In this document: in pieces, positions 5,058-58,745 of the stretch
Numbering within the stretch: the stretch's first letter is position 1
Layout: every line of letters starts with the position of its first letter
DNA from: Pseudomonas graminis
GTDB lineage: Bacteria > Pseudomonadota > Gammaproteobacteria > Pseudomonadales > Pseudomonadaceae
Reading direction: 5' to 3'
Assembly (NCBI RefSeq): GCF_013201545.1
Contig: NZ_CP053746.1
Location: forward strand, 3,548,501-3,612,500
DNA length: 64,000 bases
The notes under the pieces: generated by a model
Databases searched by the model: none
What the model saw: only the letters and a program-made list of their open reading frames with translations
What the model was told of the DNA's origin: nothing
Program-made: the position numbers and the translations under genes

Positions 5058-7130
5058 ATGGCCAAAACGGACGCCCCGGCGCGCGCGCCGCAACCTACCG
5101 TCAAATCGCACCTGGCCTATACGCTCCTGAGCGGCCTGGTGCTGATGGTCCTGTACACCCTTTTGCGCGTTGCGCTGCTGGTCTATAACCGCGAAGGCAT
5201 CGGCGCGACGCCGGCTTCGACGTTCGTCGAGGCGTTCGGCAATGGCCTGCGATTCGATCTGCGTCTGGTCGTGTACATCCTGATTCCCCTTCTGCTGTCG
5301 CTGTTCAGCGCGCGCATGATGGCGGCCCGTGGGGTGTTTCGCTTCTGGCTGACGCTGGTTGCAAGCCTGACCGCGTTCTTCGGCCTGATGGAGATGGATT
5401 TCTACCGTGAATTCCACCAGCGCCTGAATGGCCTGGTTTTCCAGTATGTCAAAGAAGACCCGAAAACCGTTCTGAGCATGATCTGGTACGGCTATCCGGT
5501 GGTTCGCTATCTGCTGGCCTGGGCACTGCTGACCTGGCTGCTGAGCCTGGTCTTCAAAGGGGTTGATCGCCTGACCCGGCCCCGTGGCGGCTTCAACGTT
5601 GCCAGCGCCGACAACCGCGTGGTCGCGCCGCTGTACAAGCGCGCCGTGGTTTTTCTGCTGTGTCTGGTGGTGGCCGTCATCGCCGCTCGCGGCACCCTGC
5701 GTCAGGGCCCGCCGCTGCGTTGGGGCGATGCTTACACCACTGAATCCAACTTCGCCAACACCCTGGGCCTGAACGGCACGTTGACGCTGATCGCGGCGGC
5801 CAAGAGCCGGATGTCCGAGGACCGTGACAACATCTGGAAAGCGACCTTGCCTCAGGCCGAAGCCCAGCAGATCGTCCGCGACATGCTGCTGACCGCCAAC
5901 GACAAGCTGATCGATCCAGAAAAAGCTGCGGTGCGTCGCGATTTCACGCCGCCGGCGGCCAACACGCTGCCGATCAAGAACGTCGTCGTGATCCTGATGG
6001 AAAGTTTCGCTGGCCATTCCGTGGGGGCGCTGGGTGATGAATCAAACATCACACCTTACTTCGACAAACTGTCCCAGGAAGGTCTGCTGTTCGATCGTTT
6101 CTTCTCCAATGGCACGCACACCCATCAGGGCATGTTCGCGACCATGGCATGCTTCCCGAACCTGCCGGGCTTCGAGTACCTGATGCAGACGCCGGAAGGC
6201 AGTCACAAGCTGTCCGGTCTGCCGCAGCTGCTCAGCGCGCGCAAGTATGACGACGTTTACGTCTACAACGGTGACTTCGCCTGGGATAACCAGTCCGGCT
6301 TCTTCAGCAACCAGGGCATGACCAACTTCATTGGCCGCAATGACTTCGTGAATCCGGTGTTCTCGGACCCGACCTGGGGTGTGTCCGACCAGGACATGTT
6401 CGACCGTGGCGCCGAAGAACTGAAAGCCCGCGAAGCCAAAGGCAAGCCGTTCTATGCCTTACTGCAAACCCTGTCCAACCACACGCCGTACGCACTGCCG
6501 GCCAATCTGCCGGTCGAGCGCGTGACCGGGCATGGCACCCTGGATGAACACCTCACCGCCATGCGTTATTCGGACTGGGCGCTGGGTCAGTTCTTCGAGA
6601 AGGCCAAGAAAGAGCCGTACTACAAAGACACGCTGTTTGTGGTCGTCGGTGACCACGGCTTCGGCAACAACGAGCAGATCACCGAGATGGACCTGGGCCG
6701 CTTCAACGTGCCGATGCTGATGATCGCCCCGGGCCTGCAAGACAAGTTCGGCAAGCGCAACAGCATCGTCGGCACGCAGATCGACATCGTGCCGACTATC
6801 ATGGGCCGCCTGGGTGGCGACACCGTGCACCAGTGCTGGGGCCGCGACTTGCTCAATCTGCCGGCGGGAGACGAGGGCTTCGGTGTGATCAAGCCATCGG
6901 GCAGCGAGCAGACCGTGGCGCTGGTCACCGGCAACCGGATCCTGATCGAACCCAAGGAAATGGAGCCGAAGGTCTACAGCTACGAGTTGGGCACCAAGCC
7001 CCACGCCGAGCTGATGCCGAATGCGCCCGACGTCACCGAGTTGCGCAAGAAGCTCGACAGCTTCCTGCAGACCGCGACCAGGAGCCTGCTGGACAACACG
7101 GCAGGGGTCAAAGACGCCAAGCCACAATAA
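5058..7130 (+). CDS. LTA synthase family membrane protein (sulfatase-fold phosphoglycerol transferase-like)
   Basis: 690 residues. Four to five membrane helices lie in residues about 20-215, followed by a large periplasmic sulfatase/alkaline-phosphatase-fold domain (about 255-610). Visible signatures are VVVILMESFAGHS (metal-ligand Glu), GTHTHQGMFATMACFPNLPG (nucleophile Thr region), ALLQTLSNHTPY and VVVGDHGFGN (metal-ligand Asp-His). Gram-negative relatives act on envelope glycans or lipids, for example by adding phosphoglycerol or phosphoethanolamine. The substrate here is unknown because Pseudomonas lacks lipoteichoic acid. The gene is monocistronic, with 271 bases of featureless upstream DNA and a strong terminator after it. 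Confidence 0.9.
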   Translation: MAKTDAPARAPQPTVKSHLAYTLLSGLVLMVLYTLLRVALLVYNREGIGATPASTFVEAFGNGLRFDLRLVVYILIPLLLSLFSARMMAARGVFRFWLTLVASLTAFFGLMEMDFYREFHQRLNGLVFQYVKEDPKTVLSMIWYGYPVVRYLLAWALLTWLLSLVFKGVDRLTRPRGGFNVASADNRVVAPLYKRAVVFLLCLVVAVIAARGTLRQGPPLRWGDAYTTESNFANTLGLNGTLTLIAAAKSRMSEDRDNIWKATLPQAEAQQIVRDMLLTANDKLIDPEKAAVRRDFTPPAANTLPIKNVVVILMESFAGHSVGALGDESNITPYFDKLSQEGLLFDRFFSNGTHTHQGMFATMACFPNLPGFEYLMQTPEGSHKLSGLPQLLSARKYDDVYVYNGDFAWDNQSGFFSNQGMTNFIGRNDFVNPVFSDPTWGVSDQDMFDRGAEELKAREAKGKPFYALLQTLSNHTPYALPANLPVERVTGHGTLDEHLTAMRYSDWALGQFFEKAKKEPYYKDTLFVVVGDHGFGNNEQITEMDLGRFNVPMLMIAPGLQDKFGKRNSIVGTQIDIVPTIMGRLGGDTVHQCWGRDLLNLPAGDEGFGVIKPSGSEQTVALVTGNRILIEPKEMEPKVYSYELGTKPHAELMPNAPDVTELRKKLDSFLQTATRSLLDNTAGVKDAKPQ

Positions 7131-32836: not shown

Positions 32837-33140
32837 GATCAAGGGCGTCGGCCTAACGGCCTCGGGTTTCGCCTTCGGCGACTTACTTTTGAAAAGCACC
32901 AAAAGTAAGCAAAAGTGCCTGCTCCTGGTTGGGCCCTTCCTTCGTCAGGGTGCCTTCACTCCGGTCCCGCTCCGTGGGCCCGCCGCCATCCGCCATCCAT
33001 GGCGGGGGGCGGCTCTCGCGGCATCCATGCCGCTCGGCCCACGGAGCGAGACCTGCGTTCAGCCTGCACCAAAGTCGCGATGGGTGTCGTCTGGGCCTTT
33101 TGTGTTTGAAGAGCAAAAGCAGATCAAAAGCAGATCAAAG
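32837..33140 (+). repeat. Structured dispersed repeat, copy A
   Basis: This is a non-coding block of about 300 bases that begins with GATCAAGGG and ends with two GATCAAAG units. It has tandem hairpins: GGCC-TAAC-GGCC (32850-32861), TCGCC-TTC-GGCGA (32869-32881), CTTACTTTTG / CAAAAGTAAG (32882-32909), and a long-range stem 32964-32980 with 33036-33052. The inner hairpins CGCCAT/ATGGCG and GCGGCAT/ATGCCGC lie within. Copies B and C share the layout but differ in stem sequence. Short ORFs across it are spurious. Confidence 0.85.
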
Positions 33141-33280
33141 GCTTCCCGGCTGAAGCCGGTCCTACAGAATGTACGCAGCGCTTTTCGTAGGACCGGCTTT
33201 AGCCGGGAAGGCGTCGGGCGCCGCGCTGCAAAATGATGGGTGTACGCACAGGCCTCTTTCCCGGCTGAAGCCGGTCCCAC
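33141..33280. repeat. REP cluster, CCGGCT-AAGCCGG core
   Basis: Three arms, at 33141-33165, 33187-33211 and 33258-33280, alternate in orientation. Their cores are GCTTCCCGGCTGAAGCCGG or its complement, ending CCTAC or CCCAC. Confidence 0.85.
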
Positions 33281-57849: not shown

Positions 57850-58215
57850 CACATCAAGATCAAGATCAAGATCAAGATCTACGGCGGTCTGCCTAAGGGC
57901 AGACGTTTCGCCTTCGGCGAGTTACTTGGAAAAGCACCCCAAGTAACCAAGGGTGCCTGCTCTTGGTTGGGCCCTTCGTTCCTCAGGGTTCCCTCACTCC
58001 GACGACGCTCCGTGGGCCCGCGCCGAACGGACATCCCTGTCCTAGCGGCGCTCTCGCGGCATCCATGCCGCTCGGCCCACTGCGCGTCGTCTGCGTTCGG
58101 CCTGCACCAAAGTCGCGATTGGCGGCGTCTGAGCTTTCTGTGCATGAAGATCAAGATCAACAGCAGATCAAGATCAAGGGCAAATCAGGGGCAGATCAAG
58201 GGAGATCAAACGCTG
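57850..58215 (+). repeat. Structured dispersed repeat, copy B, with GATCAA-rich ends
   Basis: It starts with a tandem ATCAAG run (57853-57878) and ends with a series of GATCAA units. It holds GTCTGCC-TAAG-GGCAGAC (57888-57905), CGCC-TTC-GGCG, GTTACTTGG-N9-CCAAGTAAC (57921-57947), GGACA-TCCC-TGTCC, GCGGCAT-CC-ATGCCGC and an outer stem between about 58002-58018 and 58074-58090. The bases differ from copy A but the pairs are kept. Overlapping ORFs are spurious. Confidence 0.85.
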
Positions 58216-58221
58216 AGGACT

Positions 58222-58313
58222 TGTAGGAGTGAGCTTGCTCGCGAAGGGGTCGGTACATTCACCGGATTTTTGGTGTTTGGAATACAGCATTCGCGAGCAA
58301 GCTCGCTCCCACC
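58222..58313. repeat. Inverted REP pair (GAGCAAGCTC core)
   Basis: The arms at 58222-58248 and 58290-58313 share the GAGTGAGCTTGCTCGCGAAG core and are complementary except for a few bases. Confidence 0.88.
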
Positions 58314-58356
58314 GGTAGGGGGCGCTCAGCAAAATTGTTGGCGCCTGGACTGGCTT

Positions 58357-58443
58357 CTTCCCGGCTAAAGCCGGTCCCACTAAAAGCAACGCGCGCAGTC
58401 AGTGGGATCGGCGCTGATTGTAGGACCGGCTTCAGCCGGGAAG
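58357..58443. repeat. Inverted REP pair (CCGGCTAAAGCCGG core)
   Basis: The arms CTTCCCGGCTAAAGCCGG (58357-58380) and TAGGACCGGCTTCAGCCGGG (58420-58443) are complementary. They lie between the two inverted copies of the structured repeat. Confidence 0.88.
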
Positions 58444-58454
58444 CTCTTGATCTG

Positions 58455-58745
58455 CTTAAACCCGCTTTTGATCTTCGTACACAAAAAGTCCAGACACTGC
58501 CAATCGCGACTTGGGCGCAGGCTGAACGCAGACGACGCGGAGTGGCCCGAGCGGCATGGATGCCGCGAGAGCGCCGCTAAGACATGGATGTGCGTTCGGC
58601 GCGGGCCCACGGAGCGTCGTCGAAGTGAGGGAACCCGACGAAGTCGGGCCAAACCGAGAGCAAGCACCCTTGGTTACTTGGGGTGCTTTTCCAAGTAACT
58701 CGCCGAAGGCGAAATGTCTGCCCTTAGGCAGACGCTCTTGATCTA
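58455..58745 (-). repeat. Structured dispersed repeat, copy C, inverted to copy B
   Basis: On the minus strand it begins GATCAAGAGCGTCTGCC and reads like copy B, so B and C form a long inverted repeat of about 280-base arms. The GTTACTTGG/CCAAGTAAC hairpin, the GTCTGCC/GGCAGAC hairpin and an ACAT-CC-ATGT hairpin are present. It ends with GATCAAAAG and GATCAAG units. Confidence 0.85.

Follow-up and report, generated by a model that had tools for sequence, protein, structure and literature searches.

Copies of a dispersed Pseudomonas element each specify one structured strand that may be an Rsm/CsrA-binding RNA

Introduction

Three copies of a dispersed repeat, here called A, B and C, lie in a window of 64,000 nucleotides of the Pseudomonas graminis chromosome (the whole stretch of DNA that was analysed, with positions counted from its first letter). 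Each folds into the same series of hairpins with different paired bases, which raises the question of what is being preserved when the fold is kept and the letters are not. A sequence-only reading of the stretch had suggested that either a folded RNA or cruciform DNA was under selection. The reading that we favour, with moderate confidence, is that the three copies belong, as arms, to a dispersed chromosomal element, that each arm specifies one structured strand and that this strand is most likely an Rsm/CsrA-binding RNA, the function being proposed from sequence. The two-hairpin junction, the downstream hairpin-pseudoknot, the GGA loops, the strand specificity and the head-to-head layout of the arms are given as findings because comparison between copies shows them.

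Results and discussion

Three copies share one fold with different paired bases

Copy A is a solo arm at 32837..33140 on the minus strand, with its 5' end in RNA sense near 33140 and its 3' end near 32837, and a REP pair (33143..33203, from sequence and repeat comparison) lies directly 5' of it in the same sense. Copies B (left arm, 57850..58215, RNA strand minus) and C (right arm, 58455..58745, RNA strand plus) are the inverted arms of a head-to-head unit at 57887..58733, the spacer of which (58221..58444, by the same comparison) contains REP sequences of two types. Over 234 nt, A and B share 80% identity, and B and C are mutually inverted at 91% and 95% identity over two aligned blocks (inverted repeats I1 and I3), with 313 nt between the inner blocks.

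Direct reading of the sequence bore out the earlier observation of one fold with differing paired bases in all three copies. Hairpin III reads CTTACTTTTG/CAAAAGTAAG in A, and B and C both have GTTACTTGG/CCAAGTAAC; for the first hairpin, A has GGCC/GGCC where B and C have GTCTGCC/GGCAGAC. The hairpin before ATGCCGC differs in all three copies (CGCCAT/ATGGCG in A, GGACA/TGTCC in B and ACAT/ATGT in C). The outer stem of A, GTCCCGC/GCGAGAC, is likewise present, but on the plus strand used in that reading it contains a C.A mismatch, which is G.U on the minus strand; the strand itself, the RsmA/CsrA-type loops, the pseudoknot and the head-to-head pairing had been overlooked. Protein coding was rejected as an account of the copies: 14 listed open reading frames overlap them, on both strands, and the ten searched in Pfam gave no match. 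Rfam hits at E<=1 to mir-3158 and mir-590 (at the REPs), mir-9242 (core of A) and Leu_leader (outside) all fell under their own cut-offs and were taken as chance palindromes.

The core of each copy is a two-hairpin junction of the TwoAYGGAY type, which we described with a covariance model of 120 nt (R1, built from 61 copies, threshold 120 bits). R1 scores 131.5 bits on A (32951..33070, minus), 141.6 bits on B (57989..58108, minus) and 124.7 bits on C (58514..58633, plus), the last being the lowest score among the 76 copies matched above threshold in the 5.52 Mb host genome. Against dinucleotide shuffles, the fold z-scores are -6.4 for the core of A and -6.1 for that of B, with a weaker -2.4 for C, in which the second hairpin has decayed.

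The claim that stems change by compensation held in a larger alignment, in which paired positions did not vary independently. Cores were aligned with MAFFT without structure (211 rows, 191 after removal of duplicates) and analysed with an R-scape-like test, a purpose-written script using a G-test, average-product correction and 60 to 100 null alignments evolved along a FastTree tree with the observed substitutions. Among the 191 distinct cores, 12 column pairs covary at E<=0.05, and 11 of them coincide with base pairs of the fold. The remaining one is a G.A beside hairpin 1 (columns 36-55), present as G.A in 107 of the 191 cores and as a Watson-Crick pair in the remaining 84; the second G.A of this tandem is seen in the consensus only. 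When 61 host cores were aligned, 13 of the 36 predicted pairs had double-sided changes. A pair-counting tool applied to 130 distinct rows from other genomes found change on both sides in 32 of the 36 core pairs (shuffle mean 22.4; 10-12 with slid partners) and in 689 cells (156 in shuffles; 38-72 with slid partners), counts that lean towards the fold because the alignment was fitted to the model.

A hairpin-pseudoknot module lies downstream of the core

A motif like GGTTACTTTT occurs downstream of the core in 181 of 190 segments, where it forms a stem with AAAAGTGACC, with a short CGCC hairpin after it; the analysis excluded the nine segments that lack the hairpin motif and a further two that lack a 7-bp stem. 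In A this 3' module, a long hairpin with a pseudoknot and then the short CGCC hairpin, is at 32861..32924 on the minus strand, and a second covariance model, R2, scores 63.7 bits on it (host genome coordinates G000:C1:3581361-3581424, minus). In B, sequence and covariation place the GTTACTTGG/CCAAGTAAC hairpin, with its pseudoknot partner GCACCC/GGGTGC, at 57921..57956 on the minus strand. No Rfam family matches the 3' module of A, B or C at E<=1.

Over 181 rows, the R-scape-like test gave 11 significant pairs in the module, nine of them in helices; the other two (45-58 and 45-71) link the pseudoknot strand to a hairpin arm and may reflect alternative pairing or a triple. The pseudoknot itself is formed between the hairpin loop and the bases just upstream, which pair over at least 4 bp in 62% of 114 distinct combinations, compared with a mean of 32% and a maximum of 40% in 200 rounds of shuffled partners. 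Its two strands are exchanged together between copies, for example from GCACCC/GGGUGC to AAGCCC/GGGCUU. A pairing of 5' GGGUGC with GCACCC, predicted by RNAalifold, is a possible alternative to the loop pseudoknot, and both can pair in most copies.

One strand of each arm is structured

When one base of a G-C or A-U pair undergoes a transition, the result on a given strand is either G.U or A.C, so the strand on which the fold matters can be read from the intermediates. Placed on the tree, transitions led to G.U 104.6 times and to A.C 19.0 times (minus strand of A; mean of 20 reconstructions), an excess with a binomial p of 7e-16 on 104 v 18. The far greater number of G.U than A.C intermediates on one strand identifies the structured strand as minus in A and B and plus in C. 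Within the host genome, G.U and A.C cells stand at 15:1 in left mates, 16:3 in right mates and 24:3 in single arms, and since left and right mates each show the bias on their own strand, each arm is selected on its own strand. Of the two possibilities offered by the sequence-only reading, cruciform DNA is disfavoured: it would use both strands alike and predicts no strand bias, and was rejected on the observed 105 G.U v 19 A.C.

Strand bias alone does not separate RNA from single-stranded DNA, in which G.T wobbles give the same bias. The fold could accordingly be read as DNA, with the arms as the ends of a non-autonomous transposable element acted on at replication by a REP/RAYT- or IS200/IS605-like enzyme and with RNA uninvolved, a reading that we regard as unlikely. 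Each mate favours its own strand, opposite to that of its partner, a pattern not expected from a single transposing strand, and the layout of the units, taken up below, bears on the same point.

Conserved GGA loops resemble Rsm/CsrA sites

GGA is found in the loop of hairpin 1 in 191 of 191 cores and in that of hairpin 2 in 189, and the Rsm/CsrA-like motif CANGGANG in 190 and 188 of the 191, respectively; the rows were gathered by models from copies having GGA loops, so some selection is possible in these counts. Across the 191 cores, an A stands two positions before GGA and mostly a U after it, while the base between A and GGA varies (T in 142-143 cores, otherwise G, A or absent) and the stems also change. 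The AYGGAY two-hairpin arrangement of TwoAYGGAY was found across the 191 copies and in A, B and C. A motif scan placed the candidate RsmA/CsrA sites of A at 33022..33029 (loop 1, CATGGATG) and 32994..33001 (loop 2, CATGGATG) on the minus strand, those of B at 58032..58039 (CAGGGATG) and 58060..58067 (CATGGATG) on the minus strand, and those of C at 58555..58562 (loop 1, CATGGATG) and 58583..58590 (loop 2, CATGGATG) on the plus strand. In the 64 kb window, two CANGGANG motifs within 60 nt on one strand occur in A, B and C alone, in every case on the RNA strand and with starts 28 nt apart. GGA as such occurs eight times in A, seven in B and five in C.

The high-affinity site of RsmE is described as an ANGGAX hexaloop on a stem (PMC4005645), and the motif used for Pseudomonas is given as A/UCANGGANGU/A (PMC4353343); the CANGGANG loops fit the RsmE/RsmA site as set out in these two sources. 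Four CsrA-family genes are present in the host genome. The presence of CsrA was uninformative as a predictor of the element, as all 59 of 59 genomes have it. The GacA box, for which PMC4353343 gives the form TGTAAG-N6-CTTACA, has no exact match in any of the 76 host copies, searched between 130 nt 5' of the core and 200 nt 3' of it.

From these loops, a mechanism can be proposed in which transcription would run outward through each arm from the centre of the pair, and a single dimer of the RsmA/RsmE/CsrA family would bind both CANGGANG loops, the starts of which are separated by 28 nt. As some genomes carry dozens of copies, the RNAs might then titrate or buffer Rsm proteins; an alternative effect, put forward with the same reserve, is that the element RNAs are themselves silenced by Rsm proteins. 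In the B-C unit, a sigma-70 scan gave no promoter-like site, and the one terminator-like site present is no more than in shuffles.

Covariation within the host genome alone is block-like, and this pattern bears on a further explanation: that the element is a selfish repeat evolving neutrally, in which gene conversion or template switching between the hairpin arms maintains their complementarity and swaps helices as blocks, with no selection on folding. In the full-length host alignment, with its variable flanks, only three pairs are significant, all of them base pairs. With the flanks trimmed, 16 pairs are significant under a site-weighted null and 11 under a uniform null; base pairs account for 6 of the 16 and 5 of the 11, cross-terms inside the outer stem for 9 and 5, and the one remaining pair in each list (268-292) links the pseudoknot strand to a hairpin arm. 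Each helix exists in a few block alleles within the host genome, cross-terms inside one helix are also significant, and two loci, one of them in the host itself, have an arm that lacks the two-hairpin core but is present in its other parts, all of which would suit a neutral repeat. Template switching would, however, make perfect arms on both strands and not a 5:1 excess of G.U over A.C, nor does it predict a near-invariant GGA with a free preceding base or loop-to-upstream pairing above that of shuffled partners. We consider this explanation highly improbable.

At columns 45, 58 and 71 of the 3' module, as at 268 and 292 of the host alignment, a pair and a third, upstream base change together, which might reflect a base triple within the pseudoknot or two helices that form alternatively. 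The core-less arms (L254 at about 5063-5469, and L062, downstream of a single copy) keep their outer parts and perhaps arose by deletion between the arms of the outer stem.

Arms are arranged head-to-head with REP sequences between them

Of 21 cases in the host in which neighbouring copies are separated by less than 3 kb, 20 are head-to-head in RNA sense. The same holds for 18 of 19 neighbours among 107 R2 matches in twelve other genomes, these pairs coming from six of the twelve and nine of them from G234, in which the spacing of the nine R2 pairs (L416, L417) is nearly constant at 390-411 nt. Two of the G234 pairs are 85% alike over 569 nt, and one passes the RF01731 cut-off.

In 63 of the 76 host arms a REP-like sequence is found in the 130 nt 5' of the core, and in no arm in the 200 nt 3' of it. 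Units that move as a whole are suggested by four pair loci of a single species (G017), which align over 782-839 nt at 75-90% identity as one unit of about 0.8 kb with unrelated flanks; the spacer at L170 is unlike those of the other three. The ends of this unit are inverted, GTACATATCCGTT on the left (read in three of four loci) and AACGGATATG or AATGGATATG on the right, and no target site duplication was seen by eye at the four loci. These inverted ends, unit-wide homology and unrelated flanks are MITE-like at the four loci of that one species. By their resemblance to the G017 loci, B and C look like one mobile unit of this kind and A like a solo arm.

It is here that transposition of single-stranded DNA finds its evidence: the placement of the REPs, the occurrence of pairs as units with inverted ends, the rarity of the element in plasmid and phage collections, the lack of a promoter-like site in the B-C unit and, as reported in PMC8450116, an insertion sequence of P. 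putida that inserts in REPs, to which G.T pairs would add an explanation of the strand bias. Besides the opposite strands of the mates, the loops speak against it in matching the consensus of an RNA-binding protein, closing pairs included, and none of the seven spacer open reading frames searched encodes a transposase.

The two arms of a pair are in several genomes of different types. In G017, arms within a pair are 69-76% alike and match arms of other loci at 93-100%, and among loci that were chosen and are not a random sample, such heterotypic mates are clear in G017, G046, G052 and G063, partly seen in G008 and not seen in G125 or G068. G026 shows the opposite, with mates as alike as, or more alike than, non-mates, and in the host genome mates are no more alike than expected by chance (0.820 v 0.835 permuted).

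In some other hosts, the spacer between the arms holds a reading frame. One such frame, of 306 aa, encodes a DpnII-MboI nuclease domain (Pfam E 5.8e-41; PADLOC Aga_Helical-REase E 3.9e-26) and lies between two head-to-head R2 modules at L385:416-1333 (G267), where it may be defence cargo. The other six of the seven spacer frames searched have no match in Pfam, PADLOC or NCBIfam, among them L410:1541-2251 (237 aa) and L414:2840-3121 (94 aa), both in head-to-head pairs. Three host spacers were read: that of B-C with its REPs, one with an IS110-like transposase gene (from sequence reading; G000:C1:3108268-3109934, near a REP) and a 2.6 kb interval with ordinary genes. Tentatively, and we think it somewhat doubtful, the element may represent mobile units of one family, with matches in 60 of 272 sampled genera of the class, that are bounded by two head-to-head arms, move whole and can carry accessory genes such as the DpnII/MboI-type nuclease. 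A pseudoknotted RNA would be encoded by each arm, and in Pseudomonas its loops would bind RsmA/CsrA. If so, mobile DNA would be tied to a global post-transcriptional regulator of its host.

The gene context allows a last explanation to be weighed, namely that the arms act in cis in the untranslated regions of neighbouring mRNAs as a terminator, a stabiliser or an Rsm-controlled leader. The 3' side does lie near genes, with the next one mostly 105-280 nt from the core, and pairs are mostly between convergent genes (12 of 18). By simple gene calls, however, the RNA strand would be in the transcript of the 5' neighbour for only 20 of 40 single arms, which equals chance, no U run follows the last hairpin in A, B or C, and a terminator scan of the B-C unit finds none after the last hairpin. 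We consider cis action, too, highly improbable as the explanation.

Relation to described RNAs and repeats

The suggestion that the element may already be catalogued was right in part: RF01731, the Rfam family of TwoAYGGAY RNA, matches the core of A, and the R200 repeat is similar in size and copy number, as judged from its description. TwoAYGGAY has the same two adjacent AYGGAY-loop hairpins in one junction on the same strand. Its match on A (32945-33074, minus) scores 43.1 bits, 0.1 bit over the cut-off of 43, and the scores of B (36.1 bits) and C (23.0 bits) are under it. A tandem G.A is reported for TwoAYGGAY (PMC4333381), comparable to the covarying G.A beside hairpin 1. The Rfam model has 168 positions and its matches stop short of the hairpin-pseudoknot module, so that the TwoAYGGAY fold is here one module of a longer, dispersed and paired element. 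TwoAYGGAY is listed as a candidate RNA of the human gut, gamma-Proteobacteria and Clostridiales in PMC2864571, and binding of CsrA has been proposed for it from motif matches (PMC4333381). In the literature searched, with most subscription journals outside its scope, TwoAYGGAY was not joined to Pseudomonas dispersed repeats and the paired unit was not described. Here TwoAYGGAY forms one part of an element that is dispersed in 76 copies through a single genome, with a fixed head-to-head layout and an additional hairpin module matched in 60 of 272 genera sampled.

The small RNAs RsmX/Y/Z and CsrB/C share with the element several GGA motifs, some in RsmE-type hairpin loops; RsmY and RsmZ of P. 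fluorescens SS101 are given eight GGA each (PMC4353343). The element differs in its dozens of copies, its large junction, its pseudoknot and the lack of a GacA box. R200 of P. fluorescens is described as 320 bp long with 60% G+C and with 47 copies in SBW25 and eight in Pf-5 (PMC2718517); on size and copy number it may be the same repeat, and the table in which it appears lists no structure. REPINs and BIMEs with RAYT are likewise inverted intergenic pairs, with REPs in the spacer and rare outside chromosomes in the collections searched. They are, however, palindromes of 20-40 nt as described, whereas the arms here are not short REP palindromes but are about 300 nt long, with a branched core and a pseudoknot, and the REPs lie beside them. 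MITEs resemble the element in being non-coding units with inverted ends and copies at different sites; they differ in that the arms here are long, covarying and strand-specific and the spacer in other hosts can hold a reading frame.

Were every arm to yield an RNA that binds Rsm/CsrA, a large population of repeats would be connected to a global post-transcriptional regulator, and strain differences in copy number would become testable regulatory differences. In work on P. putida KT2440, intergenic RNAs adjoining ISPpu8 or likely ISPpu8 sites were enriched with each of the three Rsm proteins, and the RNAs recovered include a "long palindromic region" downstream of PP_3547 (PMC7937890). By analogy with that description, such a palindromic RNA would fit a head-to-head unit, and we offer this as a lead; the element would provide a testable explanation for the Rsm-bound palindromic intergenic RNAs of that species.

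Distribution among genomes

R1 matches were found in 104 of 149 genomes of the genus, the host included, and RF01731 passes its cut-off in 30 of 59 genus genomes; both searches scored a limited number of candidates in each genome, so the copy numbers are lower bounds. Named genomes among the matches listed in a pattern scan are P. graminis, P. abietaniphila, P. petrae and unnamed Pseudomonas species. At the level of the class, R2 alone matches 74 of 369 genomes in 60 of 272 genera (host included), compared with 19 of 369 for the R1 core, with E-values of both models that are rough. In several class-level loci an R1 match, often weak, adjoins R2 on the same strand, and over 57 distinct class-level rows R2 shows 97.9% pairing and 97 double-changed cells, compared with 22.6 in shuffles, in an alignment fitted to the model. 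Scans of 21 class-level loci at the Rfam gathering score gave a single match, RF01731 in L416, and none to the 3' module. The CANGGANG loops were absent from both strands in two (L397 and L401) of nine class-level pair regions inspected.

The variant of the host had no match in 72,556 plasmid and 50,697 phage records. Two other variants matched in part three records of the plasmid collection, two of them 2.5 and 4.9 Mb in size, and one of these variants also matched two records of the phage collection over 64% and 20% of the query at 91-92% identity.

Within the host chromosome, 68 of the 76 copies lie above 2.8 Mb. Only one lies in G000:C1 0.62-2.99 Mb and most others in 2.99-5.48 Mb, so that the former interval looks like a repeat desert. 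Flanks of host copies match contigs of P. petrae and Pseudomonas sp. CFBP 13711 at up to 95% identity and P. graminis at 93-94%. The copy at 357408 is absent from a contig with 72-80% flank identity, and that at 4718839, together with its REPs, from one with about 90%; loci of gain and loss were fetched because they hold copies, and these are examples and not rates. Use of relatives as empty-site references was abandoned, as most flanking-gene matches, at 67-82% identity, are too distant for breakpoints. One genome labelled as the same species (G020) gave a sole match of 71% to the flanking genes searched and has copies that score much lower, and its label looks wrong. A contig labelled as a Pantoea MAG (L290) carries a Pseudomonas-type copy with flanks 72-80% identical to the host and is possibly from a mislabelled bin.
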